From contig JAIWNF010000088.1 of assembly GCA_025093555.1 (NCBI GenBank), positions 1 through 64,000 on the forward strand: a stretch of 64,000 nucleotides of DNA, written 5' to 3'. Position numbers and translations under genes: made by a program. The notes beneath the pieces were generated by a model. It did not search any database. It was not told the DNA's origin and was given only the letters and a program-made list of their open reading frames with translations. Source of the stretch: Circinella umbellata (Eukaryota > Mucoromycota > Mucoromycetes > Mucorales > Lichtheimiaceae). Below, piece by piece: positions 1 through 54,254 of this stretch (within the stretch, counting starts at the first letter, position 1; every line of letters begins with the position of its first letter).

Positions 1-612
1 ATAACAAGAAACAACTACCCAAAAAAAAAATCTTTTTTTTTTTACTGGCACAAACAGAGATAACGAAAATAGCAGACAAACCGAAGAGACACAACAGAAA
101 CAGAACAGATGAGACCACACGAGACCGACCAGAGCAACAGAAACCAAAAAAAATGATACCAAACTGGCCACCCACACAACAAGACCAACCACACCAACAC
201 CGACCCACCAAGAGCCAACCTAAGAGTCAAGGGCACAACGTATCCAAGGTACCGTTCCTTGATACCGCCTTCTTGCAAACTTCTTGTCCAACAGGGTGTT
301 GCTGGGGAACATTTGTTGGGTGCCACGGAAGGAAAAAACCAAAAGAAAAATAAAAAAAAATCGGAATCGTTGGAATCGTCAACAGAACATCTTGGAAAAC
401 AACATCTTGCTACAATAAAAATGGTAACGGAGAGGCACAGGAAAATAAAAATTATGGCAAAGACAACAAGGGCCACAAATAATAATAATAATAAAAATAA
501 GACTTGATCATAAATAAAATAATAATGCTCAACCACGGCATGTTTTTACAGTGGGGCTACTATAGACAAAGTAGCTGCCACTTGGGATATGATCCCGGTC
601 GACCCCCCAATT
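1..612. other. Left flank without recognisable gene
   Basis: Open frames exist on both strands, but they translate to low-complexity residues (runs of Phe/Leu/Val on minus, Asn/Lys on plus) and match no family I know. The end nearest the palindrome (about 545-575) holds a short motif, TACAGTGGGG, that resembles a transposon terminus; see findings. I call nothing coding here. Confidence 0.5.
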
Positions 613-817
613 TGACACGTGTGGTGCTTGAATGTGATAAAAAGTAAGTATAAAAATAAAGGTAAAATAAAATAAAAATTTAAGGAGTAGAATAAAATAA
701 AATAAGATAAAATAAAAGGGTTCAAAGAAGTTACGGGTTGAGTGTAGTGAAAGTAAAGAGGTAGAAATAGAAAAGAAGATAATAAATAAAATAAAAATAT
801 CACAGTGATTATCCAAA
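613..817. other. AT-rich outer tail of left palindrome arm
   Basis: This is low-complexity sequence dominated by AAAATA-like units (about 655-720), mirrored at 11662-11866. It lies beyond the last recognisable viral codons and shows no conserved protein, so it may be host or filler DNA captured with the duplication rather than virus. Confidence 0.5.
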
Positions 818-1141
818 TCAACTGTCAAACAAAATCAATACGAAATAAAAATAAATAAAATCAAAAGTAAAGTCAAAGTTACTATCCGGATCGAAAAGAT
901 AAAATTCGTCCACATAAAGGTCATCCACACAAACGCCAGTGGGTAGACCGTTAACATTAATCAAATCACACGTCCTAACACACATGTCAAAATCAAAACA
1001 TGGATAGTCATTACTATACCTATTTTTTAAAGCTCCACGTAAATCTGATACAACTTTTTTCGTAGATCCAACATAAAAATTATTAGGATTAAAATTCTCA
1101 ACAGAAAAATGTGTTTTTCCAGTACCCGCACCGAGGACCAA
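818..1141 (-). pseudogene. Endogenous virga-like replicase: helicase N-terminal fragment (left arm)
   Basis: Seen: the fragment opens with a P-loop (GAGTGKT) and about 70 residues later has a Walker B-type segment (VDDLYVDEF). This order and spacing fit viral superfamily 1 helicases of the alphavirus-like group. After the second motif the reading degenerates into Phe/Ile/Asp-rich low complexity, so helicase motifs III-VI and the polymerase are absent. There is no genuine start codon because this is an internal piece of a polyprotein. It differs from its mirror copy at 11338-11661 in two residues (Arg/Cys and Asp/Asn), both explained by single transitions. It is non-functional as a helicase. 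The family assignment is by motif recognition. Confidence 0.8.
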
Positions 1142-1408
1142 ATAAAAACTTATTAGTTTTTATTGGTTCTCTATTACATGATTACCATCATGTTAGGTTT
1201 CTTTCAGAAAGACCAGATACACCTTCAAAAAATCGAAGATTTTTCTCGGACACCATCTTTACAACAAGGAATGTTATAACCGATACGGTTCTTAAGAACC
1301 GAGATAATTAAATTTTTTAATTTCATTAAAAATTTATTTTATCAAACATCTAAAAATTAATAAAAATTTAAATTTCATTTAAATCTTTTATATTTTTATT
1401 GTTTTCGG
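1142..1408 (-). other. Broken AT-rich segment between linker and helicase fragments (left arm)
   Basis: This is the mirror image of 11071-11337. It has stops in all frames on the viral sense strand and contains the perfect palindrome CGGTTCTTAAGAACCG near 1286-1301. It interrupts the viral reading between the linker fragment and the helicase P-loop. It could be a small insertion or degraded viral coding sequence. A short stretch near the mirror position 11224 still reads as plausible protein. Confidence 0.5.
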
Positions 1409-2515
1409 TTAATCCCCACCCGTACTCATGAGGATCTGTTCGGGCCAGTTAAATCTCCTATCAAATCGAAATAAAGAATTAGCTATATTTTCATCGTTCA
1501 TAACTACTGTAAGATCACTAACTAACAGATATCCTGTATAATCCGAAAATGGAGATCTGACCTCATGTAATTTCCTTTCTGTATTATACCTTAATTGTAA
1601 ACAAGGAGTTTCCATATCAGGCTTATAAGGTAAATAACCGACAGAATATTTCTTGGAACTTCTATGATATCTCTCAACCTCTAGTCCGCGTACAAATTTT
1701 ATAGTATTATAACCTATTTTGATCATTTGTTGACCATCCAAAACTTTCTTACTAGGTTCATAATTTGGACCTATAAATGCATTCATAGCATGTTTACACA
1801 TAACATTATGGACACACGCCGAAGTGTCTTTTCAGTATACATACACTTCAAATATTGCTTTAGTATGTTTATCATAATAATCCAAATCTATGCCTATGTT
1901 ATTTGCATAATCTATTTCCTTTAAGTTATCGGCTGACCTAATCTTTTTCTTAAACTCTTTTGCATCTAAAACTTCTTCTGGACGCAAAACCGGTAACATA
2001 ATATCAGAAACCATAACATCAGTAGGTACTTCTGAGTATCCATTGGCATCATCCACCAATTGTGACTCAGTAGACTTCATGGAATCAGATCGACGCAATA
2101 ATGATTCTACTATAGAATCCAATCCATTCAGAATCTCTTCCATTTCATCATCGTCTACATAATCTTTATCTCTAGGTTTTGGAGGTATGGGTTCGTCTGT
2201 GAATAAACTCGAAAAATCCATTTCTTTAATAGAATCCTCAACAATAGAAAAAGAAGGTTCAACGTCTATCTTCAACAAGTCTTCAAACCAACTAATACCA
2301 GACACATCCTCATTTCTGTAATGATAGTACCACATGGTTTCGAAAGGTGTCAGCGAAGCAGATCTAGCCAAACCAACCGCTTCTTCATTATACAGATTAT
2401 CTATAAAATGAGAATACGTGAAAAATTCAATAACCATATCTTTTGACCAATAATCATCTGAAGAAGTATTTAACATACTTTTGGTCAATTTATCAACTAT
2501 TTCTTGAATGGGCAC
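1409..2515 (-). pseudogene. Endogenous virga-like replicase: linker region (left arm)
   Basis: One reading frame interrupted by a single in-frame TGA (near 1832) encodes about 227 residues plus a downstream 130-residue block. The first block is rich in Asp/Glu/Ser and has a predicted disordered middle (Pro-Lys-Pro then an acidic run). This is typical of the variable region between methyltransferase and helicase in alphavirus-like replicases. It follows the methyltransferase fragment with a one-base frame change at a run of seven T (A on plus), so the two were once continuous. The block is identical to the right-arm copy. No catalytic motif is visible, and identity rests on position between the methyltransferase and helicase fragments. 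Confidence 0.75.
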
Positions 2516-2522
2516 TCTACTT

Positions 2523-3497
2523 TCAAAAAAACTCTTTCATCTTGTCATAAAAAGCTTCATAAGCAAATTCAACATTACTACGTTTATGCATTAATTTGAC
2601 GCCGTTTGACAACACATTTTGTACAACAGTATTGTTCACTAATTTTTCTTTTACTGCTTCCAAAAACAACGCCACCACCACTTGGTTTAACATCTGCGGT
2701 TCTAGTTTTTCAAATGACTTGAAAGTTTTTCCGTTAACAACAAATTCTGAATTTATAGTACGAAGATACCTAGTAACTAACACTATATATTCATCATCTG
2801 GTTTTTCAATAGTTGTCAAAAAATTCTTCACCTGATTATAGATAACTTTGTGACACGAAATGATCATAGGAGAACATTTAACATTAGATCTTCTATTCCA
2901 ACCAGTCTTGATAGAATATGTTTTTAAAAACACAAAATCATCTCTAATATCTACCACTGGAGAATGTTTCACAGCTTTAGTTCCATATGGCATTTTTCTA
3001 ATAGCATAAATCAAAACATCACTTGTGACGTATTCATGCCTATAAGCATACAAATAACCCTTGTGATAAATATCCTGCTCGAAAAAGAATTGTCTGAATG
3101 TCGAATATTTATAAGTGTATCCGTTCGTTTCATCATTATTGAACACACACATAGTATCATTCGCCAGATCGATAACAAAATTTTGTTCGAAAGCTGGTAA
3201 CTCCCCACTATCAAACCTCAACATAGACTTAGACATGGCTTCAGCACCATATAATACATCTACACCTTTTCTGTGCATGATGTCTATTAAACGGGTCAAG
3301 CTAAATTCGCGAGCACTAAACATGGTTATAGCTTGTCTTGCGCGTTCCTCACATAATTCAGATGGTCTGAAACATCTATGATACAAACCAGTATCTTGAT
3401 AGAAAAAAGGAGCTTGTTCCCCAGTGTACGCAAAATCACTAAGCACAGGATTCACTCTTCCTCCATTCCTCGTAGCACTCCGAATATATTTTCTCAA
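2523..3497 (-). pseudogene. Endogenous virga-like replicase: methyltransferase fragment (left arm)
   Basis: An uninterrupted 324-codon stretch encodes the central and C-terminal part of an alphavirus-like capping methyltransferase. Seen: a GLYHRCFRPSELCEERARQ-like block near residue 38, in the place where this family has its conserved His/Cys plus Asp-x-x-Arg segment. The C-terminal part (around residues 240-300) has the pattern of tobamovirus-type replicases. The first codon is TTG with open frame before it, so this is not a natural start. It begins where the transposon insertion ends, and it stops by a frameshift in a homopolymer. Product, if made, would be incomplete. The right-arm copy at 8982-9956 is identical in protein. 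Confidence 0.8.
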
Positions 3498-5472
3498 ACT
3501 ATGGCGGTTAAATTAGATTATATCATTTCTTTTATATTTAATAATTGTCATAGTAATAAATCAAAATATCATATTTATAATAATTAAATAAAAATATAAT
3601 AATAATATCCTAACAATTGAAAAAATAAAAATTATATAAAAATATATAATTTGCTATTATTTTTTTAAAAGATGAACACATTTAACATTTGAAATTCAAA
3701 AATTTTTTAAATTTGTTAATAGGTAATAAAAACATTATATCATTATATTCTGTTTAATGCTTTATATTCATTAATTATGGTTTTAGTATTGAAATTACTT
3801 TCTTTAACCCAAGAATTATGATCATCATTATAACCTTTCCATTTAATATAATATATTAATTTATTATCATTATCTATTATATGATCTAAAATTTTTTCTA
3901 CTTCATAGAATTCCTCATTTTCATTTACTTTTTTATGATTTCTTTTTCTTCTTTTTATTGAATCAACTATTTCATTTTCTTGAATTATTTCATTTATATC
4001 TTCCATCATTTCTATATCATTTAAATTTAAGTTTAAAAGTTGTTCTTGCATTTCTAACATCTCATTATAATCTTTATTAATAGATTGTTCATTTTTAAAT
4101 ATATAATTTAATTTAGTTTCTTTAGTAGGAAATTCAAAATTATCATTATACCATAACATGTGGTGAGGTTGTGCTTCTATATTATAATCTTGTACCATTT
4201 TCCATATATTTTTTAATATGCAAGCAACACGAAATTGAAGATTATAATATTTAATATCAGTTGTTTGAACAGCAGATCTATTATTATTAAATCTATCAAA
4301 TTTAGATGCTAAAATAGAAAAATGATTTTCTATACCTGATCTAAATGAACCAAATTTTTTATTATAATCTAATTCAGTTACTTTTCTTGGTATATTTTGT
4401 TCCTTTCTTATAGGATATACAAAGTTTCTAGTATTAAATTTATTATTACTATTATATTCATCTGCATTATTAAGAAATTTTTCTATAAATAAATCATAAC
4501 CACCATCGAAACCAATACAATCATATTCATAAATTTTGTTTTTATATAACTTCATATTAAGAAACATTGTTCCATCATTCCCAATAGCACACTTTTCACT
4601 ATCAGATACATATGTTATCATATTATTCATATCACATATTATCTGTGTACGTATTCCTGAACCTTTCAATTTATAAGAATACAATGTACGTTTTGATTCT
4701 GCTGGATTATAATACTTAATCTTACTATCATGACCATCAAGAAATAAAGTTACATTCTTAAAACCATCAGGATTATTTTTTTTTGCAACAAGTATTCTAA
4801 TTTTAATATTAGAAAACATATTATTTAAATCTTTTTTTATAATTTTATTTAAATCAGTATAATTAGTTATCCAAAAGCGTTTATATAGATCATAAAATGT
4901 TGAAGATGGTATAAATTGATGCATATCTTTGCATGTATATCCTGAAACAATATGATATAATAATATTAATCCTTTCTCTACTTCACGATATGGACCGGGA
5001 TATTCTTTATTTCCATATAAAACCACTAAAAAATAAAATATAGGTATATAACCAAATTGATTTAATAATATATCTTTTATAAATTGAATTGAATTATTTT
5101 TTGTATCTTTTATTTCTGTTCTATGATTAAATTTTTTATAAATATATGGCCATTCCATATTAAGAAATTCCCATTTATTTTCAATTAATTTATAAACTTC
5201 TTGTTGTATTTCTTCTTGGATATTAGTAGTATTCATTTTTTTGTTCGATCTTTTAACTCTATGAGCAATCAGGAAAATCTAATAACCTTAGACAAATGTC
5301 AAAATTTTTTAAAAATGATTATATTAATATTTTGAGTACTACTCAATATAATAATAAAAATTCAATTTTAATTTTTTTCTAAAAATAAAGTAATTGAGAT
5401 TAAATTTATTTTTCGGATAAAATAAATTATCTTGGATATAGTAATTAATATGAAAGTATATAGAATTATAAA
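3498..5472 (-). mobile_element. DDE-chromodomain DNA transposon inserted in viral sequence (left arm copy)
   Basis: About 2 kb of very AT-rich DNA separates the N-terminal viral fragment from the methyltransferase fragment and carries one transposase gene. Exact ends are unsure. CTTTATATTTA at the viral 5' side and its near inverse TAAATATAAAAG at the other side are candidate termini, flanked by a possible AAAT duplication. The composition is far more AT-rich than the flanking viral codons. Confidence 0.65.
3743..5236 (-). CDS. DDE transposase with C-terminal chromodomain (left arm)
   Basis: A complete 497-codon gene without introns, identical in protein to the copy at 7243-8736. Catalytic residues are likely Asp167 (LFLDGHD), Asp244 (GFDGGYD) and Glu303 (RSGIENHF). 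This is the arrangement of IS5/PIF-Harbinger-like DDE nucleases, which cut and rejoin transposon ends. Residues about 441-497 form a chromodomain (YEVEKILDH, then YYIKWKGYNDDHNSWVKESNF), a module that usually reads methylated histone H3. An acidic, Lys/Arg-rich linker separates the two. Inference: the chromodomain steers insertion to marked chromatin. The frame is intact, so the element may still be active. The superfamily assignment is moderate. Confidence 0.85.
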   Translation of the reverse strand: MNTTNIQEEIQQEVYKLIENKWEFLNMEWPYIYKKFNHRTEIKDTKNNSIQFIKDILLNQFGYIPIFYFLVVLYGNKEYPGPYREVEKGLILLYHIVSGYTCKDMHQFIPSSTFYDLYKRFWITNYTDLNKIIKKDLNNMFSNIKIRILVAKKNNPDGFKNVTLFLDGHDSKIKYYNPAESKRTLYSYKLKGSGIRTQIICDMNNMITYVSDSEKCAIGNDGTMFLNMKLYKNKIYEYDCIGFDGGYDLFIEKFLNNADEYNSNNKFNTRNFVYPIRKEQNIPRKVTELDYNKKFGSFRSGIENHFSILASKFDRFNNNRSAVQTTDIKYYNLQFRVACILKNIWKMVQDYNIEAQPHHMLWYNDNFEFPTKETKLNYIFKNEQSINKDYNEMLEMQEQLLNLNLNDIEMMEDINEIIQENEIVDSIKRRKRNHKKVNENEEFYEVEKILDHIIDNDNKLIYYIKWKGYNDDHNSWVKESNFNTKTIINEYKALNRI

Positions 5473-6106
5473 TTAAAATAAATATAAAGATTTCTCGGAT
5501 ATACCTCTATGTTCAGCTTCAGATATTCTAGAAAAATTACCTGGAATGGGTGACTTATCAACCTCGACTATTTCACCATTTGGTAATACTTCTGTATTTA
5601 ATAATTGATAACAACAATGACAATTCAAACCTCGTTTCATAAGCGATGTGTACATCATACCTAATGTTAAAAATCTTTCTTTAATGTCCATCATATGAAC
5701 CAAGATAGACTCTAATGTCAATCTCATAACGAAACTCATGTCATGTGATGTTGTGGCAAAATTCTTCACCGGCTTCCTATTATCCCTGAAACCTCTAGAA
5801 AAATCTCGTCGTGTAGGGGTTGACACACCACTGGAACTCTTGGCCCCTTCCCCAGGTTCCTTAAACTTAATATGATATCCTCTAAAATGATCAGTGATAA
5901 AATCCTTAATCTGTTGTGTAGTTAACACCACCAACTGAACATCTAGAGCATTCACTTTACTGCTCAACAAATTATTAGAGTTAGCAGCCACGTTATTTAA
6001 TAATTTTTCCAATGTTTTTTTTTTCATTTTCTGCCAATAAGATCTGTGCAAAATCTTCAGCGAACTTCACACCAGCTCCTTCTTCTAACAGAAAATCTCT
6101 TTCCAT
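5473..6106 (-). pseudogene. Endogenous virga-like replicase: N-terminal fragment with 87-bp deletion (left arm)
   Basis: The viral start codon is at 6106-6104, just inside the leader. Relative to the right arm, 87 bp (29 codons) are missing right after the first codons, between two copies of the 11-base repeat AAGAGATTTTC. Downstream, a run of ten A (T on plus) near 6016 shifts the frame, and a 192-codon frame then continues to 5473. It contains FRGYHIKF and a Ser-His segment (TSHDMSFVMRLTLES) that match the start of alphavirus-like methyltransferase domains. The frame ends in sequence contributed by the transposon junction. The product is broken three ways: deletion, frameshift and insertion. 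Confidence 0.75.
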
Positions 6107-6162
6107 GTTGATTATTGTCGGTTTTGGTTATTTGACTTTGTAAAATTATAGTCAGGAAAATT
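6107..6162 (-). other. Viral 5' leader, left copy
   Basis: Reading toward the start codon on the minus strand, the leader is A/T/C-rich and almost free of G, with CAA/ACC-type repeats. This resembles the unstructured leader of tobamo-like RNAs. It differs from the right copy (6230-6285) at a few bases. One leader ends at each side of the spacer, which places the palindrome junction at or near the viral 5' terminus. Confidence 0.6.
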
Positions 6163-6229
6163 GTTAGTCTTTTGCAAAATTTGGTAGGCTAGGATTCCCG
6201 GTTGATACCGAGAAAAGTATTAAAAAAGT
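6163..6229. other. 67-bp unique spacer at the palindrome centre
   Basis: This is the only part of the palindrome without an inverted partner. It contains GGCTAGGATTCCCGGTTG (6187-6204), which resembles the D-arm/anticodon-arm stretch of eukaryotic tRNA-Glu as I remember it, followed by ATACCGAG. The rest is A/T-rich. It would form the loop if the palindrome were transcribed. Confidence 0.7.
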
Positions 6230-6285
6230 AATTTTCCTCACTATAATTTTACAAAGTCAAACAACCAAAACCGACAATAATCAAT
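6230..6285 (+). other. Viral 5' leader, right copy
   Basis: This is an A/C-rich, G-poor stretch (AAAGTCAAACAACCAAAACC at 6253-6272) that ends directly at the ATG at 6286. Its composition is unlike host promoters here and like the leader of tobamo-like viruses. It mirrors 6107-6162. Confidence 0.6.
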
Positions 6286-7006
6286 ATGGAAAGAGATTTT
6301 CCTATGGATATATTTTTAAATAGACCTAGGTCGGCGCCGGAGACAACTCTCGGGCCCGATTTTGGAAGAAAAAAAATAAGAGATTTTCTGTTAGAAGAAG
6401 GAGCTGGTGTGAAGTTCGCTGAAGATTTTGCACAGATCTTATTGGCAGAAAATGAAAAAAAAAACATTGGAAAAATTATTAAATAACGTGGCTGCTAACT
6501 CTAATAATTTGTTGAGCAGTAAAGTGAATGCTCTAGATGTTCAGTTGGTGGTGTTAACTACACAACAGATTAAGGATTTTATCACTGATCATTTTAGAGG
6601 ATATCATATTAAGTTTAAGGAACCTGGGGAAGGGGCCAAGAGTTCCAGTGGTGTGTCAACCCCTACACGACGAGATTTTTCTAGAGGTTTCAGGGATAAT
6701 AGGAAGCCGGTGAAGAATTTTGCCACAACATCACATGACATGAGTTTCGTTATGAGATTGACATTAGAGTCTATCTTGGTTCATATGATGGACATTAAAG
6801 AAAGATTTTTAACATTAGGTATGATGTACACATCGCTTATGAAACGAGGTTTGAATTGTCATTGTTGTTATCAATTATTAAATACAGAAGTATTACCAAA
6901 TGGTGAAATAGTCGAGGTTGATAAGTCACCCATTCCAGGTAATTTTTCTAGAATATCTGAAGCTGAACATAGAGGTATATCCGAGAAATCTTTATATTTA
7001 TTTTAA
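6286..7006 (+). pseudogene. Endogenous virga-like replicase: N-terminal fragment (right arm)
   Basis: The ATG at 6286 follows the leader directly. About 55 codons read in one frame until the run of ten A at 6450-6459, after which the coding sense continues in the next frame through 192 codons to 7006. This copy keeps the 87 bp that the left arm lost (6291-6377). Seen in the second frame: FRGYHIKF and a Ser-His-Asp segment, in keeping with the N-terminal core of an alphavirus-like methyltransferase. The last residues, and the stop, come from AT-rich sequence at the transposon junction. Defects are one frameshift and one insertion. It would not give a working replicase. Confidence 0.75.
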
Positions 7007-8966
7007 TTTATAATTCTATATACTTTCATATTAATTACTATATCCAAGATAATTTATTTTATCCGAAAAATAAATTTAATCTCAATTACTTTATTTTTAG
7101 AAAAAAATTAAAATTGAATTTTTATTATTATATTGAGTAGTACTCAAAATATTAATATAATCATTTTTAAAAAATTTTGACATTTGTCTAAGGTTATTAG
7201 ATTTTCCTGATTGCTCATAGAGTTAAAAGATCGAACAAAAAAATGAATACTACTAATATCCAAGAAGAAATACAACAAGAAGTTTATAAATTAATTGAAA
7301 ATAAATGGGAATTTCTTAATATGGAATGGCCATATATTTATAAAAAATTTAATCATAGAACAGAAATAAAAGATACAAAAAATAATTCAATTCAATTTAT
7401 AAAAGATATATTATTAAATCAATTTGGTTATATACCTATATTTTATTTTTTAGTGGTTTTATATGGAAATAAAGAATATCCCGGTCCATATCGTGAAGTA
7501 GAGAAAGGATTAATATTATTATATCATATTGTTTCAGGATATACATGCAAAGATATGCATCAATTTATACCATCTTCAACATTTTATGATCTATATAAAC
7601 GCTTTTGGATAACTAATTATACTGATTTAAATAAAATTATAAAAAAAGATTTAAATAATATGTTTTCTAATATTAAAATTAGAATACTTGTTGCAAAAAA
7701 AAATAATCCTGATGGTTTTAAGAATGTAACTTTATTTCTTGATGGTCATGATAGTAAGATTAAGTATTATAATCCAGCAGAATCAAAACGTACATTGTAT
7801 TCTTATAAATTGAAAGGTTCAGGAATACGTACACAGATAATATGTGATATGAATAATATGATAACATATGTATCTGATAGTGAAAAGTGTGCTATTGGGA
7901 ATGATGGAACAATGTTTCTTAATATGAAGTTATATAAAAACAAAATTTATGAATATGATTGTATTGGTTTCGATGGTGGTTATGATTTATTTATAGAAAA
8001 ATTTCTTAATAATGCAGATGAATATAATAGTAATAATAAATTTAATACTAGAAACTTTGTATATCCTATAAGAAAGGAACAAAATATACCAAGAAAAGTA
8101 ACTGAATTAGATTATAATAAAAAATTTGGTTCATTTAGATCAGGTATAGAAAATCATTTTTCTATTTTAGCATCTAAATTTGATAGATTTAATAATAATA
8201 GATCTGCTGTTCAAACAACTGATATTAAATATTATAATCTTCAATTTCGTGTTGCTTGCATATTAAAAAATATATGGAAAATGGTACAAGATTATAATAT
8301 AGAAGCACAACCTCACCACATGTTATGGTATAATGATAATTTTGAATTTCCTACTAAAGAAACTAAATTAAATTATATATTTAAAAATGAACAATCTATT
8401 AATAAAGATTATAATGAGATGTTAGAAATGCAAGAACAACTTTTAAACTTAAATTTAAATGATATAGAAATGATGGAAGATATAAATGAAATAATTCAAG
8501 AAAATGAAATAGTTGATTCAATAAAAAGAAGAAAAAGAAATCATAAAAAAGTAAATGAAAATGAGGAATTCTATGAAGTAGAAAAAATTTTAGATCATAT
8601 AATAGATAATGATAATAAATTAATATATTATATTAAATGGAAAGGTTATAATGATGATCATAATTCTTGGGTTAAAGAAAGTAATTTCAATACTAAAACC
8701 ATAATTAATGAATATAAAGCATTAAACAGAATATAATGATATAATGTTTTTATTACCTATTAACAAATTTAAAAAATTTTTGAATTTCAAATGTTAAATG
8801 TGTTCATCTTTTAAAAAAATAATAGCAAATTATATATTTTTATATAATTTTTATTTTTTCAATTGTTAGGATATTATTATTATATTTTTATTTAATTATT
8901 ATAAATATGATATTTTGATTTATTACTATGACAATTATTAAATATAAAAGAAATGATATAATCTAA
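7007..8966 (+). mobile_element. DDE-chromodomain DNA transposon inserted in viral sequence (right arm copy)
   Basis: This is the mirror of 3498-5472. The viral frame stops on entering it and reopens at 8967. A small hairpin, TTGAGTAGTACTCAA (about 7135-7149), lies upstream of the transposase. Because both arms carry the element at the same viral position, insertion most simply predates the inverted duplication. Confidence 0.65.
7243..8736 (+). CDS. DDE transposase with C-terminal chromodomain (right arm)
   Basis: A 497-residue intact frame starting at an ATG after an A-run, and identical to the left-arm protein. The DDE triad candidates are Asp167, Asp244 and Glu303. The spacing Asp-77-Asp-59-Glu and the Arg-Ser-Gly-Ile-Glu-Asn context fit the DDE_Tnp_4/IS5-like fold. 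The last 57 residues make a chromodomain with aromatic residues suitable for a methyl-lysine cage (Tyr, Trp, Trp). Codon use is extremely AT-rich compared with the flanking viral sequence, marking it as a separate element. It has no introns. It acts in the nucleus on its own termini, which I could not fix with confidence. Confidence 0.85.
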   Translation: MNTTNIQEEIQQEVYKLIENKWEFLNMEWPYIYKKFNHRTEIKDTKNNSIQFIKDILLNQFGYIPIFYFLVVLYGNKEYPGPYREVEKGLILLYHIVSGYTCKDMHQFIPSSTFYDLYKRFWITNYTDLNKIIKKDLNNMFSNIKIRILVAKKNNPDGFKNVTLFLDGHDSKIKYYNPAESKRTLYSYKLKGSGIRTQIICDMNNMITYVSDSEKCAIGNDGTMFLNMKLYKNKIYEYDCIGFDGGYDLFIEKFLNNADEYNSNNKFNTRNFVYPIRKEQNIPRKVTELDYNKKFGSFRSGIENHFSILASKFDRFNNNRSAVQTTDIKYYNLQFRVACILKNIWKMVQDYNIEAQPHHMLWYNDNFEFPTKETKLNYIFKNEQSINKDYNEMLEMQEQLLNLNLNDIEMMEDINEIIQENEIVDSIKRRKRNHKKVNENEEFYEVEKILDHIIDNDNKLIYYIKWKGYNDDHNSWVKESNFNTKTIINEYKALNRI

Positions 8967-9956
8967 TTTAACCGCCATAGTTTGAGAAAATATATTCGGA
9001 GTGCTACGAGGAATGGAGGAAGAGTGAATCCTGTGCTTAGTGATTTTGCGTACACTGGGGAACAAGCTCCTTTTTTCTATCAAGATACTGGTTTGTATCA
9101 TAGATGTTTCAGACCATCTGAATTATGTGAGGAACGCGCAAGACAAGCTATAACCATGTTTAGTGCTCGCGAATTTAGCTTGACCCGTTTAATAGACATC
9201 ATGCACAGAAAAGGTGTAGATGTATTATATGGTGCTGAAGCCATGTCTAAGTCTATGTTGAGGTTTGATAGTGGGGAGTTACCAGCTTTCGAACAAAATT
9301 TTGTTATCGATCTGGCGAATGATACTATGTGTGTGTTCAATAATGATGAAACGAACGGATACACTTATAAATATTCGACATTCAGACAATTCTTTTTCGA
9401 GCAGGATATTTATCACAAGGGTTATTTGTATGCTTATAGGCATGAATACGTCACAAGTGATGTTTTGATTTATGCTATTAGAAAAATGCCATATGGAACT
9501 AAAGCTGTGAAACATTCTCCAGTGGTAGATATTAGAGATGATTTTGTGTTTTTAAAAACATATTCTATCAAGACTGGTTGGAATAGAAGATCTAATGTTA
9601 AATGTTCTCCTATGATCATTTCGTGTCACAAAGTTATCTATAATCAGGTGAAGAATTTTTTGACAACTATTGAAAAACCAGATGATGAATATATAGTGTT
9701 AGTTACTAGGTATCTTCGTACTATAAATTCAGAATTTGTTGTTAACGGAAAAACTTTCAAGTCATTTGAAAAACTAGAACCGCAGATGTTAAACCAAGTG
9801 GTGGTGGCGTTGTTTTTGGAAGCAGTAAAAGAAAAATTAGTGAACAATACTGTTGTACAAAATGTGTTGTCAAACGGCGTCAAATTAATGCATAAACGTA
9901 GTAATGTTGAATTTGCTTATGAAGCTTTTTATGACAAGATGAAAGAGTTTTTTTGA
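8967..9956 (+). pseudogene. Endogenous virga-like replicase: methyltransferase fragment (right arm)
   Basis: The frame is open from 8967 (right after a TAA) and reads without interruption for about 330 codons to a TGA at 9956. The conserved block DTGLYHRCFRPSEL lies near its start, and tobamovirus-like C-terminal methyltransferase sequence lies near its end. In a live virus this domain caps genomic RNA at membrane replication sites. Here it lacks its N-terminal half, separated by the transposon, and ends at a frameshift in TTTTTTT (9948-9954). The unbroken length suggests the integration is not ancient. Confidence 0.8.
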
Positions 9957-11070
9957 AAGTAGAGTGCCCATTCAAGAAATAGTTGATAAATTGACCAAAA
10001 GTATGTTAAATACTTCTTCAGATGATTATTGGTCAAAAGATATGGTTATTGAATTTTTCACGTATTCTCATTTTATAGATAATCTGTATAATGAAGAAGC
10101 GGTTGGTTTGGCTAGATCTGCTTCGCTGACACCTTTCGAAACCATGTGGTACTATCATTACAGAAATGAGGATGTGTCTGGTATTAGTTGGTTTGAAGAC
10201 TTGTTGAAGATAGACGTTGAACCTTCTTTTTCTATTGTTGAGGATTCTATTAAAGAAATGGATTTTTCGAGTTTATTCACAGACGAACCCATACCTCCAA
10301 AACCTAGAGATAAAGATTATGTAGACGATGATGAAATGGAAGAGATTCTGAATGGATTGGATTCTATAGTAGAATCATTATTGCGTCGATCTGATTCCAT
10401 GAAGTCTACTGAGTCACAATTGGTGGATGATGCCAATGGATACTCAGAAGTACCTACTGATGTTATGGTTTCTGATATTATGTTACCGGTTTTGCGTCCA
10501 GAAGAAGTTTTAGATGCAAAAGAGTTTAAGAAAAAGATTAGGTCAGCCGATAACTTAAAGGAAATAGATTATGCAAATAACATAGGCATAGATTTGGATT
10601 ATTATGATAAACATACTAAAGCAATATTTGAAGTGTATGTATACTGAAAAGACACTTCGGCGTGTGTCCATAATGTTATGTGTAAACATGCTATGAATGC
10701 ATTTATAGGTCCAAATTATGAACCTAGTAAGAAAGTTTTGGATGGTCAACAAATGATCAAAATAGGTTATAATACTATAAAATTTGTACGCGGACTAGAG
10801 GTTGAGAGATATCATAGAAGTTCCAAGAAATATTCTGTCGGTTATTTACCTTATAAGCCTGATATGGAAACTCCTTGTTTACAATTAAGGTATAATACAG
10901 AAAGGAAATTACATGAGGTCAGATCTCCATTTTCGGATTATACAGGATATCTGTTAGTTAGTGATCTTACAGTAGTTATGAACGATGAAAATATAGCTAA
11001 TTCTTTATTTCGATTTGATAGGAGATTTAACTGGCCCGAACAGATCCTCATGAGTACGGGTGGGGATTAA
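9957..11070 (+). pseudogene. Endogenous virga-like replicase: linker region (right arm)
   Basis: After the homopolymer frameshift the coding sense continues in another frame from about 9957. It reads 227 codons to an in-frame TGA at 10645-10647, then on in the same frame for another 130 codons from 10678 to a TAA at 11068. The region is acidic and variable, as expected between methyltransferase and helicase. It has no start codon of its own (GTG at 9964 is incidental). Protein identity with 1409-2515 appears complete. Confidence 0.75.
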
Positions 11071-11337
11071 CCGAAAACAATAAAAATATAAAAGATTTAA
11101 ATGAAATTTAAATTTTTATTAATTTTTAGATGTTTGATAAAATAAATTTTTAATGAAATTAAAAAATTTAATTATCTCGGTTCTTAAGAACCGTATCAGT
11201 TATAACATTCCTTGTTGTAAAGATGGTGTCCGAGAAAAATCTTCGATTTTTTGAAGGTGTATCTGGTCTTTCTGAAAGAAACCTAACATGATGGTAATCA
11301 TGTAATAGAGAACCAATAAAAACTAATAAGTTTTTAT
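11071..11337 (+). other. Broken segment between linker and helicase fragments (right arm)
   Basis: About 100 bp of very AT-rich sequence is followed by CGGTTCTTAAGAACCG (a perfect 16-bp palindrome, about 11178-11193) and a second near-palindrome, CATGATGGTAATCATG (11287-11302). A stretch from about 11224 reads as plausible protein for some 20 codons, so part may be viral. The rest may be a small insertion. It has no gene of its own. Confidence 0.5.
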
Positions 11338-11661
11338 TTGGTCCTCGGTGCGGGTACTGGAAAAACACATTTTTCTGTTGAGAATTTTAATCCTAATAAT
11401 TTTTATGTTGGATCTACGAAAAAAGTTGTATCAGATTTATGTGGAGCTTTAAAAAATAGGTATAGTAATAACTATCCATGTTTTGATTTTGACATGTGTG
11501 TTAGGACGTGTGATTTGATTAATGTTAACGGTCTACCCACTGGCGTTTGTGTGGATGACCTTTATGTGGACGAATTTTATCTTTTCGATCCGGATAGTAA
11601 CTTTGACTTTACTTTTGATTTTATTTATTTTTATTTCGTATTGATTTTGTTTGACAGTTGA
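11338..11661 (+). pseudogene. Endogenous virga-like replicase: helicase N-terminal fragment (right arm)
   Basis: The P-loop GAGTGKT lies at the very start and a VDDLYVDEF acidic motif near residue 75, i.e. motifs I and II of a viral SF1 helicase. Sequence after about 11600 is low complexity and not helicase-like, so the captured viral cDNA ends within the helicase. The opening TTG is not a start codon. Two residues differ from the left arm (Cys for Arg, Asn for Asp). Confidence 0.8.
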
Positions 11662-12167
11662 TTTGGATAATCACTGTGATATTTTTATTTTATTTATTAT
11701 CTTCTTTTCTATTTCTACCTCTTTACTTTCACTACACTCAACCCGTAACTTCTTTGAACCCTTTTATTTTATCTTATTTTATTTTATTCTACTCCTTAAA
11801 TTTTTATTTTATTTTACCTTTATTTTTATACTTACTTTTTATCACATTCAAGCACCACACGTGTCATTGATATATTGTACCCCAGTAAAATAGGTGCTAT
11901 ATATTTTAGATGTTGGAAAAAGACCCCCAAGTTTTGTGACTGCTTTTGTGACTTTTGGTCAAACTCTACTCATTAGCCATATTTTTTTTAATTCCCAGAT
12001 CTATGAGAATGGGCCTTGCAAAATGCATCAAATCTGGATTATAGTTCGGAAAACTTAGGCCCTTCTTGTAATACATCATAGTGTGCCCAAAACGCATGTC
12101 CAAGTTCTACATATTATTAGAAATTCAAAATAACTAAAGTTTAATTATTTTTTCGAATAAATTATGC
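11662..12167. other. AT-rich tail of right arm and non-coding flank
   Basis: Up to 11866 this mirrors the left tail (TTTTATTTTA-type repeats). From 11867 it is unique. Close outside the boundary, TACCCCAGTA (11877-11886) loosely mirrors the motif at 545-555 on the far side. No coding potential is seen to 12167. Confidence 0.5.
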
Positions 12168-13272: not shown

Positions 13273-14390
13273 CAATCCCCTTATGTACCCTGCACTTAAC
13301 TTTCTCCCCCCCCAATTTTTAAGATTTTTTAAATTCAGCCTCATATAGTTGAGAGATGAGTCACGTGTAGGGAAGTTAAGTGCAGGCGACTCAAGCAAAA
13401 AAAAAACTTCTCTTTAAAGTATGTATAAAAGAAATTATGTGACAAATAGATTTATAACTGATTGTTGAATGTAAAACAAGAATAAAAAGAAGAGGTATTG
13501 TAGATGAAAGTTTTTATTCTCATTACACTATTTAAAAAAGATGCTAAAAAAAAAGATGCAGGCTTTTTCGTTTTCATTTTTTGGCCAAAAAAAAAGAACA
13601 TTAACCTTTTTTTTTTTCTTTTTTTTTTTTGAAATGCCATTAGACAAAATAAAATAATTCGTAAGCAAATAAATTACAACGCATGGCGTTTTTTCTTATG
13701 TACTCGGGTAAACAACAAAAAAAAGTGCTTTTCTACAACTTTTTATTATATACTGCAGAACGGATTTATTGACGATTGACTTTTATTAATCTAGCTTCAA
13801 ACAAATCGTTGAATAAATTCAACTTTCAAACAGCAATTACAACAACAGGACTAAAAGCTTTGGCAACACAGTAATATTGCGACGTGTATTTTACGGATAA
13901 TAATTACAACAAATTCTGTTTTACTGATTATCAATAAGAAGATTTAAAAACGTCCTTACATCTTAGATATTTGGCATCTCTGTATAAAAAGTTTCGGCAG
14001 CTATAATCAACCGCGATAACGTGCAAAAGGTAAAAAAAAAGGAGAAATAACTAATACATTCAACAAAATAAAAAAAACACTGGAGAATAGGCAAAAACAA
14101 TCATATGTGGACATATTATTTGATACTGACTTGGCCAATTTTTTTTCTTTCATACACTCAAATATATATATATACGCATATTATATTCTCAATTTTATAT
14201 TGCTATATGGATTTAATGGTAACGACAATATTCAATGGATACTTGATCAAAATGGATTAATGGGAGTATGAAAAGTAAGTTAGTTAGTTGATTGATAAAA
14301 AAAGAGATATAATAATGGGATCAAATAAAAAAGATTATTTGATAATTAAAAATCATGCGGTTTTTTGTTCGTGCTGTTATTGTTAATTTT
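13273..14390 (+). repeat. MULE left terminal inverted repeat
   Basis: This matches 17108-18225 in inverse. It includes a C-run (CCCCCCCC near 13305), A/T-rich sequence and a TATATATATA patch. Small open frames inside it are low complexity and not called. Confidence 0.9.
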
Positions 14391-14618
14391 TATGTTTTTT
14401 GTTGTGTTTTTACTTGATTATCAAAAATTACTGATGCTTATATTCGCGGTTGTGTGCCAAGAAAAATAAGCTTTCTGCTGAAGGTGAATAATTGTATTAC
14501 TATGGAGGGTATTTAACCAGAGAGCTAGTGTATTTTGTATCATTTGTTTATTTTACTTTTTAAAAAAAACACCAAGTTATAAAGCATTTCGTCATTTCAA
14601 AAGAAAAAAAAAACTAAA

Positions 14619-16896
14619 ATGTCAGACACCATTAACAATAAGATCGGGCGTTGCACCAAAGTAATTCCGTATAACAATTACCAAAAAACAATTAAGGAAT
14701 TCCACCATGTTACAGGTGAAGAATGGATTCACCAAAACAAACGTTATGGAAAAGGGTGGTTTAGCGAAGATAATATTGACAAATATGATGGTTGTATGTT
14801 ATAATCATAATAAAAATAAAATCTAATTATCAGTCATAATATTGAAATAACTTTGATTTGTCTATGTATTATAGTAGAAAGAAAAAGACGCAAGGTAGAT
14901 CATCAATATTATGATGGTGAAGGTCGTAAAGTTATCTTCAATGAAACATTCTTGTGTGCTCACAGTGGTAAAAAAAGAGTTCACAGTCAACGTGTTCCTA
15001 GTGATAAAACACGCCCTAGACAAGAGAAGTCTAAAAAAGTTGACTGTCCAGCAAAGCTTGAAGCAAAAAGGTATGAAGAAGATCCCGATAATGTGACTCT
15101 TCGCTTCTTTGGAGAACATACCGCACTTCACAGCCTGAGAGATGTAAATTACCTTCCGCTTGAAAATTGGGTCAAGATCCTTATCAAGGAACGTCTCGAG
15201 GAAGGTGTTGATGTGCCAACTATTGTGGATCTCGTTAATGATAAATAAGAAAAGAAGAAAGAAGAAAGTATTAGGGGTCAGCTTTTGGAATCTCTAAGAT
15301 TATACCGTGCTGTTACTTATGAAGATGTATATAACCAGTATTATAAGATCATGGTTAGACAAACGCGTATGGCAGAGCATGATTTCAGTTCTGTTGGATT
15401 ATGGTTGGTTGAACTTGAATCCAAGTCATACCATACATTTCTATGCGGTCAAAGCAATGCCGATACACAAGTATATAACTTTGGATTTGGATTTGTTGCT
15501 CCTTGGCAATTAGAACTACTTAAAAGGGCTCGTTCTTTTTGTTTAGATGCAACACATCATGTAACTATATATCCTAATACTGTTATGTACACTATTGTTC
15601 TTTGTCATGAAGTAACTGGCCGAGGTGTCCCTGTTGCATACCTCATTACCAATGATCAATCAGAAGAGCCAGTTAGAAAATGGCTAACAGACCTTAAGGG
15701 TCTTGGTGTTTCTCCTCGTCAGATTACAGTTGACTGTAGCAAAGCAGAGGCAAATGCAATTAATAGAACATGGGCTGGATCTGTTACAATTCGTTTGTGC
15801 GCCTGGCATGTAGTTCGTGCTTGGCAAAAAAACATCAAAGAAAAAGTCGTTGTGGGTGATGGTGAAGATAAAAGAGCAGTTGTCAATGCAATTTTTGCTG
15901 ATATACGCGATATGATGTATGAGGAAGATCGATCTGAATTTTATAATCAGTTGGAAAAGTTTCGTACTGACTGGGCTAATCAAGATGGCTTTATGACATA
16001 CTTTGAACAACAATGGATTAGAAATGATTTATATAAACAGTGGGTTCGATCTTTTCAAGAAGCCATGTTTAGACATATGGAATTAAACATGTTTATTGAA
16101 TCATTTCATAATCAACTTAAGACTGTATATCTACAACGTCGTCGTAATTGTCGCATGGATGGGCTTATTTTTCTTCTCATAAGTAAAGTTCATAAACGAA
16201 TCGTTCGTAGAATCAAAGCAGAAACAAATCGCGTTGGAAGAATGGGCCCATTAGCACTGGCACGTCGTGAAAGACAAATGAAAGCAGAGGCGTATACACT
16301 TGAGCAGCTTGATATGATGATTGAATTAAAAGAAGATGGTCACCAAATTCAATCATTCACTGATATTAATATATATTATATGGTAAATATGTTTTTTTTT
16401 TCGTTTCTATTGTGATTTTATATAACTTCATATATTTGAATTTCTAATATTTAAAATATAGGTGACTTCTGATGACACTTTTATAACATCGTGCACATGT
16501 GCTGATTTTGACATTACTCAACGTGCATGCAAACATATGTATGCTATTGAAATCTCTGAGCCGGAATTAAGTGTTCGATTACCACATCACTCTTCTATTG
16601 CTAATGTCCTTGAGGATGATGTTAATTCTAATTTAACAGAGGAAACAGCCGTCATTATAAATAATAATACCAGTGTCACACCAGTTGTACAACAAACACA
16701 TTCGGAGCGCATCCAAGTTATACTACGTCAAATGCAACACCATGTTACAGACGTGAGCTTTTCCTCGGCTGATGATCAATCTCTTGAAAATATTATCGAA
16801 CAGCTTACTTCCATCCAACAGCAACTGAATAATATCGGCAATATTGGTACCAACCGTCAACTACAAACCCAACTATCTAGAAGACGCCGCAATTAA
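14619..16896 (+). CDS. MULE transposase, FAR1/WRKY-GCM1-like N-terminus and SWIM finger
   Basis: Three exons: 14619-14793, 14875-16382 and 16462-16896, with GTATGT and GTAAAT donors. N-terminal part: a Cys/His set (CAHSGKK, KKVDCPAKL, GEHTALHS) like WRKY-GCM1 zinc fingers that bind transposon ends. Core: FCLDATHH and TVDCSKAEA give the two Asp, CAWHVVRAW the conserved Cys/His, and NMFIESFHNQLK the catalytic Glu of MULE DDE nucleases. C-terminal: CTCADFDITQRACKHMY is a SWIM finger (CxC...CxH), then a disordered tail with a coiled-coil segment. A TAA at 15246-15248 lies in frame inside exon 2. It is either a disabling mutation or part of a very short intron (GTTAATG...TATTAG). All catalytic residues are otherwise present. 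The ATG at 14619 is the first in frame. Confidence 0.85.
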
Positions 16897-17107
16897 TTTT
16901 TTTTTGCTTTCTTATCCAACTTCACTTTATTATCAAAACATTAAACTTTCGCCCCTCTCTTGATCAATTGCCTTCTTATCTATCTATCTATCTACATATA
17001 TATATTAAAACATTTTATCTTTTCAATATTAGCATATACAAAAAATTCAGCAATAAACGGCCAACTTATATTTGACAATATGAGCAAACTATTCACTTTT
17101 TTTAAAG

Positions 17108-18225
17108 AAAATTAACAATAACAGCACGAACAAAAAACCGCATGATTTTTAATTATCAAATAATCTTTTTTATTTGATCCCATTATTATATCTCTTTTTT
17201 TATCAATCAACTACCTAACTTACTTTTCATACTCCCATTAATCCATTTTGATCAAGTATCCATTGAATATTGTCGTTACCATTAAATCCATATAGCAATA
17301 TAAAATTGAGAATATAATATGCGTATATATATATATTTGAGTGTATGAAAGAAAAAAAATTGGCCAAGTCAGTATCAAATAATATGTCCACATATGATTG
17401 TTTTTGCCTATTCTCCAGTGTTTTTTTTATTTTGTTGAATGTATTAGTTATTTCTCCTTTTTTTTTACCTTTTGCACGTTATCGCGGTTGATTATAGCTG
17501 CCGAAACTTTTTATACAGAGATGCCAAATATCTAAGATGTAAGGACGTTTTTAAATCTTCTTATTGATAATCAGTAAAACAGAATTTGTTGTAATTATTA
17601 TCCGTAAAATACACGTCGCAATATTACTGTGTTGCCAAAGCTTTTAGTCCTGTTGTTGTAATTGCTGTTTGAAAGTTGAATTTATTAAACGATTTGTTTT
17701 AAGCTAGATTAATAAAAGTCAATCGTCAATAAATCCGTTCTGCAGTATATAATAAAAAGTTGTAGAAAAGCACTTTTTTTTGTTGTTTACCCGAGTACAT
17801 AAGAAAAAACGCCATGCGTTGTAATTTATTTGCTTACGAATTATTTTATTTTGTCTAATGGCATTTCAAAAAAAAAAAAGAAAAAAAAAAGGTTAATGTT
17901 CTTTTTTTTTGGCCAAAAAATGAAAACGAAAAAGCCTGCATCTTTTTTTTCAGCTTCTTATTTAAATAGTGTAATGAGAATAAAAACTTTCATCTACAAT
18001 ACCTCTTCTTTTTATTCTTGTTTTACATTCAACAATCGCTTATAAATCTATTTGTCACATAATTTCTTTTATACATACTTTAAAGAGAAGTTTTTTTTTT
18101 GCTTGAGTCGCCTGCACTTAACTTCCCTACACGTGACTCATCTCTCAACTATATGAGGCTGAATTTAAAAAATCTTAAAAATTGGGGGGGGGAGAAAGTT
18201 AAGTGCAGGGTACCTAAGGGGATTG
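17108..18225 (-). repeat. MULE right terminal inverted repeat
   Basis: Inverse of 13273-14390 with scattered small differences (for example GTTTAATAAATTC versus GTTGAATAAATTC and A-run lengths). The ending is CCTTAGGGGATTG-like on the plus strand at 18213-18225. Confidence 0.9.
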
Positions 18226-34330: not shown

Positions 34331-34335
34331 ATATA

Positions 34336-34759
34336 CAGGGTTTTTCCAAATTATTTGCGCTGAACTAAATTAATTTTGCGCTATGAAAAAAATTATTTTG
34401 CGTTGTCTGGGGAATAAATTTGCGTTAGTAATTTTGCGCCAATGATTTTTCACCGAATTTTTTGCACCGAAGTATGTATGTCCAAGCACTTAATATTTTT
34501 TATTGCCTCACCATAGAGTATATTAAACAATATTTCATTAAAAATAATCATAAATGAACTCCATATGAGCTATTTTAGAAATAACAATTAAAATAAAGTT
34601 ATAAGCACCAAGGAAGTAAATATTTTGACGCAAAAACAGGAACGCAAAATCATTGGCGCAAAATTACCAATGCAAATTTATTTCCCAGACAACGCAAAAT
34701 AATCTTTTTCATAGCGCAAAATTAATTTAGTTCAGCGCAAATAATTTGGAAAAAACCTG
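34336..34759. mobile_element. TA-flanked hairpin MITE (GCGCAAA family)
   Basis: CAGGGTTTTTCCAAATTATT opens the left end and the inverse closes the right, each next to TA. Inverted arms of over 100 bp share TTTGCGCTGAAC, TTTTGCGCTATGAAAAA, TTGCGTTGTCTGGG and TTGCGCCAATGATTTT blocks. The centre is AT-rich. Non-autonomous, Tc1/mariner-like by its target site. Confidence 0.85.
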
Positions 34760-35149
34760 TAGTAGACTTGGCAGATCTAGCATTTTATTTGATATTTAAA
34801 ATACAGTATCTAGTTTTGACTCCATTATATCTAGCTTAAAAAAATCTTCTGTGTCAATATATATAGAGTTTTGACATTTAACAATAATAGGGTCATATTA
34901 TATGCAAATGATTCATTATTATATCTCTGGGCGAGGAAAAAATAATTGTTACACAGAAATTCGACTAAATAAATCAGCCGCAGACGCTAAACCTTGGCGG
35001 TATTCTTTTTGTTGCCAATCGACGTGGCAAAAGTCAAGACGCACGCATAGTTAACAGGCATATATATATATAAAAAAAAGGAGAAAGGGACTATACACTT
35101 TCTTGTTTTTTTAGTGGTTTTTTTTGTTTACTGGTAAAAAGAACATCGA
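34760..35149. other. Upstream region of the acetyl-CoA transporter gene
   Basis: AT-rich. A GC-richer patch near 34975-35050 and a TATATATATA run at about 35060 lie 90-150 bp before the start codon and are plausible promoter parts. No gene. Confidence 0.35.
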
Positions 35150-49950: not shown

Positions 49951-50148
49951 AGCTTTGGAGGAGTCGCTTACAATGTGTTGCGCGCTACATTGAAAAGTAT
50001 ATTATTTTATATCGAGAATTAGTTTATTTCTGTACAATTAAAAATAATAATAAGAAGATACATAGATACTCAGTACGTAGACATCGGCAAAAGTAAAATT
50101 GTACAGTAACGACGACGAAGGAAGTCGTCTACAACATTACACGACATA

Positions 50149-50269
50149 GGGGACCTTGGCTGTGGATCAATTCTTTCTTTATTCAAAATCGAAACATTAT
50201 ACTACTGAGAATTAATTATGAAATAATAAAAGGAAAAATATTGTCTAAGTCTATAATCTCTATCTTCTT
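50149..50269. repeat. DIRS inverted terminal repeat (left)
   Basis: Starts GGGGACCTTGGCTGTGGATC and is the inverse of 54134-54254, with no difference seen over most of its length. Confidence 0.9.
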
Positions 50270-50329
50270 GAATGAGGATTAAATAGGTAAAATAAATAAA
50301 ATAAATTAAAGCGGAGGGGGGGTGGGGAC

Positions 50330-50420
50330 AGCCAAGGTCCCCTATGTCGTGTAATGTTGTAGACGACTTCCTTCGTCGTCGTTACTGTACATTACACATC
50401 CTTGTCGGGGACCTTGGCTG
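50330..50420. repeat. DIRS internal complementary region
   Basis: It joins the inverse of the left outer end (...GTCGTCGTTACTGTAC) to the inverse of the right outer end (TTACACATCCTTGTCGGGG) with one base between. It serves as template for circle closure in the DIRS model. It overlaps the last codons of the recombinase gene. Confidence 0.88.
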
Positions 50421-54081: not shown

Positions 54082-54133
54082 AAGAAGCTACGGCGGTGAT
54101 ATGTCCAGGAGCGTAGTAAAATGTTCGAATGAA

Positions 54134-54254
54134 AAGAAGATAGAGATTATAGACTTAGACAATATTTTTCCTTTTATTATTTCATAATTAATTCTCAGTA
54201 GTATAATGTTTCGATTTTGAATAAAGAATTGATCCACAGCCAAGGTCCCCGACA
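54134..54254. repeat. DIRS inverted terminal repeat (right)
   Basis: Inverse of 50149-50269. The element continues to about 54265 with ...CGACAAGGATGTGTAA, matched by the internal complementary region. Confidence 0.9.

Follow-up and report, generated by a model that had tools for sequence, protein, structure and literature searches.

The way in which RNA viruses that lack a DNA stage gain entry to genomes has mostly been inferred from their proximity to retrotransposons. LTR elements are already known to capture RNA viruses. The element eBxnv-1 of Bursaphelenchus xylophilus is nodavirus-like and lies in a Bel/Pao LTR retrotransposon, for which the authors suppose copy-choice during reverse transcription; according to the available portion of that report, its viral gene is placed between two LTRs, with PBS, PPT and pol (PMC5177903). 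In Aedes aegypti cells, retrotransposon-virus hybrid vDNA has been reported, together with a CFAV EVE flanked by an LTR and gag Ty3 sequence, and the available portion of that report describes neither a palindrome nor a joint at the retrotransposon RNA start (PMC6797480). Complex LTR insertions formed by template switching are described in Triticeae, where both partners are retrotransposons and no virus is involved; the words "inverted" and "strong-stop" are absent from the main text, as far as it was available (PMC1950507).

The locus described here resembles eBxnv-1 in that positive-strand RNA virus-like sequence lies within LTR retrotransposon sequence (PMC5177903), and resembles the Aedes vDNA in that viral RNA would have become DNA by recombination with LTR retrotransposons, Ty3 types included (PMC6797480). 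Unlike in eBxnv-1, R-U5 alone borders the virus-like sequence, which is present in inverted copies and joined at the predicted RNA start. No palindromic EVE with a viral 5' end as its axis was found among the literature matches listed, in line with the preliminary description of this DNA, which knew of none.

Geometry and content of the palindrome

The window, i.e., the whole stretch analyzed, comprises positions 1-64000 of contig C198 (127,947 bp), and the palindrome starts 612 bp from the contig end. Among the 120 matches listed for the CysRS exon, the best one that carries an organism name is to Mortierella sp., at 79% across 67% of the query. BLASTN of the window against itself returned an inverted match of 5489 bp between 613-6101 and 11866-6378, with 99.945% identity, 3 mismatches and no gaps. 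The mirror initially proposed between 613-6162 and 6230-11866 is thus present in the assembly, with its center correctly placed at 6163-6229, the central spacer. Exact runs between the arms measure 4820, 241, 29 and 396 bp; in five mononucleotide shuffles of the window, exact inverted matches did not exceed 28 bp. The outer flanks of the left and right arms differ. The following features were delimited:

1-612, minus strand: LTR retrotransposon interior, 5' end, with PBS-like sequence at about 588-609; cut by the contig end
613-911, minus strand: R-U5 of a Ty3-type LTR, left arm; 98-99% identical to the closest copies, where U3 lies directly upstream
912-1192, minus strand: putative viral helicase-start fragment, left arm; mirror of 11287-11567
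1193-1414, minus strand: MITE-like repeat, left arm, ends approximate; mirror of 11065-11286
1415-3502, minus strand: putative viral replicase, middle part, left arm; mirrors 8977-11064, with a protein match spanning 2526-3512
3503-5507, minus strand: DDE/chromodomain DNA transposon, left arm; mirror of 6972-8976
5508-6162, minus strand: putative viral N-terminal replicase region and leader, left arm, without the 87 nt of the right arm
6163-6229, no strand: central spacer, 67 nt, flanked by GGAAAATT and AATTTTCC
6230-6971, plus strand: putative viral leader of about 56 nt, followed by the N-terminal replicase region, right arm; start codon at 6286
6291-6377, plus strand: 87 nt found in the right arm only, bounded by the 11-bp direct repeat AAGAGATTTTC at 6291 and 6378
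6972-8976, plus strand: DDE/chromodomain DNA transposon, right arm; DDE_Tnp_4 and Chromo ORF at 7243-8736, 3-bp target duplication ATA
8977-11064, plus strand: putative viral replicase, middle part, right arm; frame change near 9950, stop at 10645-10647
11065-11286, plus strand: MITE-like repeat, right arm, ends approximate; 70-79% matches on five other contigs, two of them inspected
11287-11567, plus strand: putative viral helicase-start fragment, right arm; P-loop GAGTGKT
11568-11866, plus strand: R-U5 of a Ty3-type LTR, right arm; terminates where the LTR does, with other DNA from 11867

The 67-nt spacer has a single match in the 50.8-Mb genome, and the predicted fold of the axis (6150-6242) was little better than that of shuffled sequences (z = -0.89). 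The arms are more diverged near the center, with substitutions at 6239/6153, 6262/6130 and 6285/6107. The leader, 61 nt long, thereby holds three of the six inter-arm substitutions (P = 2.6e-5 if the rate were uniform, for a region picked post hoc), as expected if the remainder of the arms has been homogenized.

In each arm, the longest ORF (497 aa) encodes the DDE_Tnp_4/Chromo transposase of the nested transposon, which corrects the reading of the whole arm as viral. With its DDE_Tnp_4 domain and 3-bp target duplication, we take this transposon to be PIF/Harbinger-like. A near-identical copy lies at C13:330296-332303, and the base at position 7100 is common to both arms and differs in the C13 and C113 copies. 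Since both nested elements occupy matching places in both arms, the present near-identity of the arms is younger than the insertions. The proposal of an inverse duplication at or after capture has to be modified in this respect, the near-identity being not simply the state at capture.

Virus-like sequence in the arms

About 3.1 of the 5.6 kb of each arm look viral, and the searched replicase pieces match only at this locus. The piece at 8967-9953 has five relatives, which are hypothetical proteins of Dichotomocladium elegans and Rhizopus arrhizus and two unnamed proteins; none of the five is named viral. The N-terminus of the right arm resembles, by eye, that of one of them, P0001. The Pfam profile Vmethyltransf (PF01660) was found in P0001 only, below the cut-off (E = 0.0029), with no match in the scanned window pieces, and the methyltransferase profile had no match among PDB sequences. 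A PDB sequence search returned eight weak matches (E = 0.024 or worse), which were taken as chance. For comparison with viral contigs, the alignment offered no conserved stretch; P0001 itself matched seven stretches, none of them a relative.

In the helicase piece, a P-loop and a motif-II-like DE stretch were recognized by eye within 11320-11661, the DE letters coinciding with the start of R. This piece gave no Pfam profile match, and the search against 5.8 billion proteins yielded two candidates, none at E 1 or better. Hence, the methyltransferase and helicase-start fragments named in the preliminary description are best regarded as tentative assignments. The RdRP_2 profile (PF00978) had no match in the genome and was equally silent in 14 of 14 control genomes; the RNA-dependent RNA polymerase falls outside the captured part.

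The putative layout is that of a Mucorales virga-like virus, whose 4.6-kb RNA1 encodes methyltransferase and helicase in the description available; the likeness concerns layout, and this virus is not named among the five relatives of the 8967-9953 piece. A Rhizopus virga-like virus has 5'-CAGU termini, according to the available part of its report (PMC11351042), and such termini were not seen by eye at the axis. Taken together, the domain hits and the layout weakly suggest a viral origin of the replicase-like pieces. These pieces lie in C198 beside host genes and transposons, as in a non-retroviral endogenous viral element, and their frames are broken by frame changes, one stop and two insertions. 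The axis is situated about 56 nt upstream of the replicase start codon, which is compatible with the joining of 5' end to 5' end proposed earlier. As to the claim that the arms are RNA-virus cDNA, part of each arm is not virus-like, and what holds is the probable capture of RNA-virus-like sequence by reverse transcription.

Retrotransposon sequence at the edges

The outer 299 bp of each arm correspond to an LTR of about 1.2 kb, from GGACGAA to the LTR end. In this LTR, GGACGAA begins 32 nt after the start of TATATAA (TATA box), i.e., at the predicted transcription start. At least 18 LTR copies were found at 92% or more (40 of 60 candidates scored), of which 12 were inspected. U3 lies directly upstream in all 12 other copies with inspected flanks and is absent from both arms. 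The virus-like sequence is thus joined to R-U5 only, from the predicted RNA start, as a step of reverse transcription would leave it. Both arms have an identical virus/R joint and lack three nucleotides that 12 of 12 other copies have. The shared joint and shared loss indicate that mirroring followed the jump.

The outer joins of the two arms differ. After the left U5 comes AATTGGGGGGTCGACC..., which also occurs there in 3 of 12 other copies but not after the right U5. Among U5 ends leading outward, eight of nine other copies continue with 3-6 nt and then TGACAC, from which the right arm differs. Over its last 48 nt, U5 is identical in 9 of 12 other copies, and recombination within this stretch might equally have produced the right join. 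Beyond the left arm, the interior at 1-612 shows 88-94% matches to seven larger copies, and the stretch 588-612 adjoins an LTR end in other copies. The PBS-like 16-mer had no exact tRNA gene match; its six genome hits, including that of the window, all lie at LTR/interior joins. The other insertion flank was sought through a homologous region in C88, which led into other repeats and gave no second flank.

Proposed origin and rival explanations

In the reading we favor, to which we give a probability of roughly 50%, a Ty3-type LTR retrotransposon captured a virga-like fungal RNA virus, of which the palindrome is the fossil, with fold-back and subsequent gene conversion. The outer R-U5 matches what would be expected if minus-strand strong-stop cDNA had switched to viral RNA and been extended as far as the 5' end of the latter. 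While the preliminary description invoked a cellular reverse transcriptase, the R-U5 edges suggest a Ty3-type LTR element as the source of this activity. We infer the following course. tRNA-primed cDNA would have copied U5 and R up to the 5' end of the retrotransposon RNA, and this strong-stop product would have jumped onto viral RNA inside the helicase region instead of to the 3' R, the GGACGAA at the start of R perhaps pairing with identical letters in the viral RNA. After extension along the viral RNA to its 5' end, the cDNA end may have folded back at the GGAAAATT/AATTTTCC stem and used itself as template, which would yield a palindrome centered on the viral 5' end and bearing R-U5 at both ends. 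The left end would also have copied the primer-binding site and transferred by it onto retrotransposon interior cDNA, with the right end, terminating at U5, joining host DNA at 11867. Two DNA transposons would have inserted later, and arm-to-arm gene conversion would have spread them and erased most arm differences except beside the axis. Somewhat more tentatively, the locus may be an integrated failed first-strand transfer, in which the strong-stop jump and the fold-back at the viral 5' end produced integrable DNA with U5 at both ends.

The main rival supposes a single strong-stop capture (virus-R-U5-interior), insertion of both transposons and then an inverted duplication at the DNA level, in which a break near the viral 5' end led to fold-back or break-induced copying and the second arm ended by recombining in another LTR's U5. 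One later duplication most simply accounts for the two nested elements in both arms and agrees with the shared base at 7100, absent from the C13 and C113 copies; the 48 nt at the end of U5, exact in 9 of 12 other copies, are perhaps enough for homologous joining. We nevertheless consider this course rather unlikely, since it leaves the position of the axis, close to the viral start, to coincidence and a very recent duplication is at odds with the concentration of three of six substitutions and the 87-nt deletion beside the axis, although error-prone repair could account for the substitutions. An assembly error, either a fold-back read or the misjoining of two separate copies, is improbable. 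Large perfect palindromes are difficult to assemble and the contig starts 612 bp from this one, inside a repeat, but six substitutions and an 87-nt segment distinguish the arms, the spacer at the axis is unique, and a fold-back read would run on into a mirrored flank, whereas the outer flanks differ.

Joining of LTR and virus as DNA, by LTR insertion into a viral copy with loss of U3 or by end joining, would profit from the frequency of this LTR in the genome; it is very improbable, as a break at the predicted transcription start of a ~1.2-kb LTR needs chance and no target duplication was seen by eye around the LTR piece. If the viral RNA had already been a copy-back (sense-antisense) defective RNA, reverse transcribed as such, the viral 5' end would likewise be placed at the axis. 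The mirroring includes retrotransposon sequence, with the same virus/R joint and the same 3-nt U5 loss in both arms, which makes this origin extremely improbable.

The gene conversion assumed in the favored reading can be compared with that of the human Y-chromosome palindrome P6, for which we know of no viral origin. Both palindromes have arms more than 99.9% alike, and conversion tracts in P6 have a mean of 2068 bp and exceed 9 kb at most, according to the available part of the report (PMC3723533). Unlike in P6, conversion in the present palindrome is deduced from its sequence.

The joint described here may show the exact step of capture, strong-stop cDNA at the RNA start. The capture idea thereby becomes testable against the position of one transcription start and against any further viral fragments attached at that base. 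If correct, fold-back capture would offer RNA viruses a general route into genomes, where they would arrive as ready-made inverted repeats. Such repeats could in principle give rise to hairpin RNA directed at the virus, for which a mirrored viral insertion is a natural candidate.

LTR/interior combinations in the source family

At the left edge, a family-A LTR adjoins a family-B interior. This combination was considered as a special trait and rejected: three different U5 ends occur among the seven copies with a B interior, and type A is not one of them, indicating that LTR/interior mosaics are common in this genome. The Ty3-type assignment of the source family comes from an element in C79 with Retrotrans_gag, Ty3_capsid, protease, RVT_1 and RNase H between paired LTRs, which are 99.5% identical to each other.

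The palindrome and the content of its arms

The window covers the initial 64 kb of a 127,947-bp contig (C198) from a genome of 50.8 Mb and 210 contigs. The near-perfect palindrome that had been proposed at 613..11866 was borne out: over 5489 bp, positions 613-6101 mirror 11866-6378 except at 3 mismatched bases. The leaders are also mirrored, starting at GGAAAATT (6155-6162) and AATTTTCC (6230-6237), with three substitutions in 61 nt. The 67-nt spacer at the axis (6163-6229) had no second match in the genome. A stretch of 87 nt (6291-6377), its ends marked by an 11-bp direct repeat, is exclusive to the right arm. Because the N-terminus of P0001, a relative of the viral piece 8967-9953, resembles by eye the peptide it encodes (RPSSAP vs RPRSAP, the latter from the 87 nt), this stretch was probably lost from the left arm.

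Right-arm features, from the axis outwards (left-arm coordinate = 12479 minus right-arm coordinate)
Start codon at 6286: leader, then start codon
Up to 6971: N-terminal replicase pieces
6972-8976: nested transposon
Up to ~11064: further replicase pieces
Up to ~11286: MITE-like repeat
Up to 11567: helicase-start piece
11568-11866: LTR R-U5 (3' part of an LTR, without U3)

The preliminary description took the arms to be cDNA of a virga-like replicase. This appears to hold for ~3.1 kb of virus-like sequence, but not for the outer ends, which are LTR R-U5, nor for the longest ORF of each arm (497 aa; DDE_Tnp_4, E 2.2e-6, and Chromo, E 2e-12), which belongs to the nested transposon. The latter is flanked by a 3-bp target duplication, and its copy on contig C13 differs from that of the window by four substitutions and one 3-nt indel.

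Of 444 candidates for the viral piece 8967-9953, five are relatives with E no higher than 0.001, none bearing a viral name: P0001 (unnamed, 68% identity), P0002 (Dichotomocladium elegans, 61%), P0003 and P0004 (Rhizopus arrhizus, 55% each) and P0005 (unnamed, 87% across 26% of the query). A weak Vmethyltransf match (E 0.0029) was obtained in P0001 only. Both genome matches of this piece lie in the two arms. A virga-like virus of Rhizopus has a methyltransferase-helicase segment of 4.6 kb (PMC11351042), which shows that such viruses occur in Mucorales.

Probable capture through strong-stop DNA

The outermost 299 bp of each arm matched at least 18 genome copies at 92-99% identity (40 of 60 candidates scored). 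The flanks were read in 12 copies, and in all of them the matching stretch forms the 3' portion of a longer LTR, with ...TATATAAGGCGTCGCCTTAAACAATAAAGAAA (or a close variant) directly upstream, followed by GGACGAA. The element on contig C79 has LTRs 99.5% identical across a 1205-bp alignment and encodes Ty3-type gag, protease, RT and RNase H. By this comparison, each arm carries R + U5 without U3, the LTR part starting at the predicted transcription start. Minus-strand strong-stop DNA of LTR elements comprises R + U5, and the extent in the arms is the same. At the joint, GTGGACGAA may be viral motif-II codons and the start of R at once, and we suggest that it could have provided microhomology for the jump; no relative spanning the virus/R joint was found.

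A strong-stop template jump onto viral RNA is the firmest part of our reading and appears quite probable. For the whole chain, in which fold-back at the viral 5' end during capture is less sure and arm homogenisation came later, we estimate a probability of about 0.5. LTR elements are already known to capture RNA viruses (PMC5177903, PMC6797480). Since the arms carry R-U5 without U3, where the TATA box lies, a putative hairpin transcript would probably have to start from an external promoter.

Outer joins and timing

At the left join, U5 is followed by AATTGGGGGGTCGACCGGGATC and then by an interior common to seven other copies at 88-94%; at the right join, the U5 end is followed by TTGATATATTG. 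Differing joins would be expected from fold-back copying, in which the second-made strand could include a copy of the primer tRNA end and transfer by that sequence to interior cDNA, the other end of the product stopping at U5. The PBS-like 16-mer was matched by no tRNA gene, which speaks against a tRNA primer. Alternatively, the right join could have arisen by recombination in U5 with another LTR copy, the last 48 nt of U5 being identical in 9/12 copies. Contig C88 holds a 94% copy of 11867-11979, beside which no family-A R-U5 (the Ty3-type family of the arm ends) was matched. An argument against integration at the right end is that outward-leading U5 ends of other family-A copies show 3-6 nt and then TGACAC in 8/9 cases, a pattern absent at the right arm.

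Both arms share the two nested elements, the absence of 3 nt in U5 and a base at 7100 that is different in the C13 and C113 copies; hence the arms were made alike by recent copying. Of the six substitutions between the arms, however, three lie within the 61-nt leader (P 2.6e-5, the region having been picked after the data were seen). The three outer ones (11198, 11440 and 11470) have A or T in the right arm vs G or C in the left, two of them in a CG, and 11198 is G in both repeat copies checked; these differences may reflect cytosine deamination. We read this pattern as an older palindrome whose arms were homogenised and whose centre was spared. A single capture followed by one later DNA-level duplication that made errors close to the break is a poorer fit, although it needs fewer steps for the transposons.

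Other elements

The TGACAC copies (loci L028, L030, L031, L047, L054, L062 and L063) look as if inserted just before another, presumed LTR start. LTR/interior swapping at the primer-binding site seems to occur in this genome, since 7 copies of one interior type carry three different kinds of U5 (loci L041-L047, L049, L050 and L061).

In the window, a MULE-type DNA transposon (13273-18225) is bounded by terminal inverted repeats of 1.1 kb with 99% identity; its MULE-like ORF scores E 5.8e-6, just under Pfam's cut-off. A DIRS-like element (50100-54250) carries RVT_1 (E 6.2e-27) as well as weak matches to RNase H-like and Dam. Its inverted ends lie at 50149-50269/54134-54250, and a short inner inverted repeat lies at 50100-50163/50328-50391. 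Further inverted repeats lie at 34334-34761 (75% identity) and 54320-54526/58343-58560 (82% identity).
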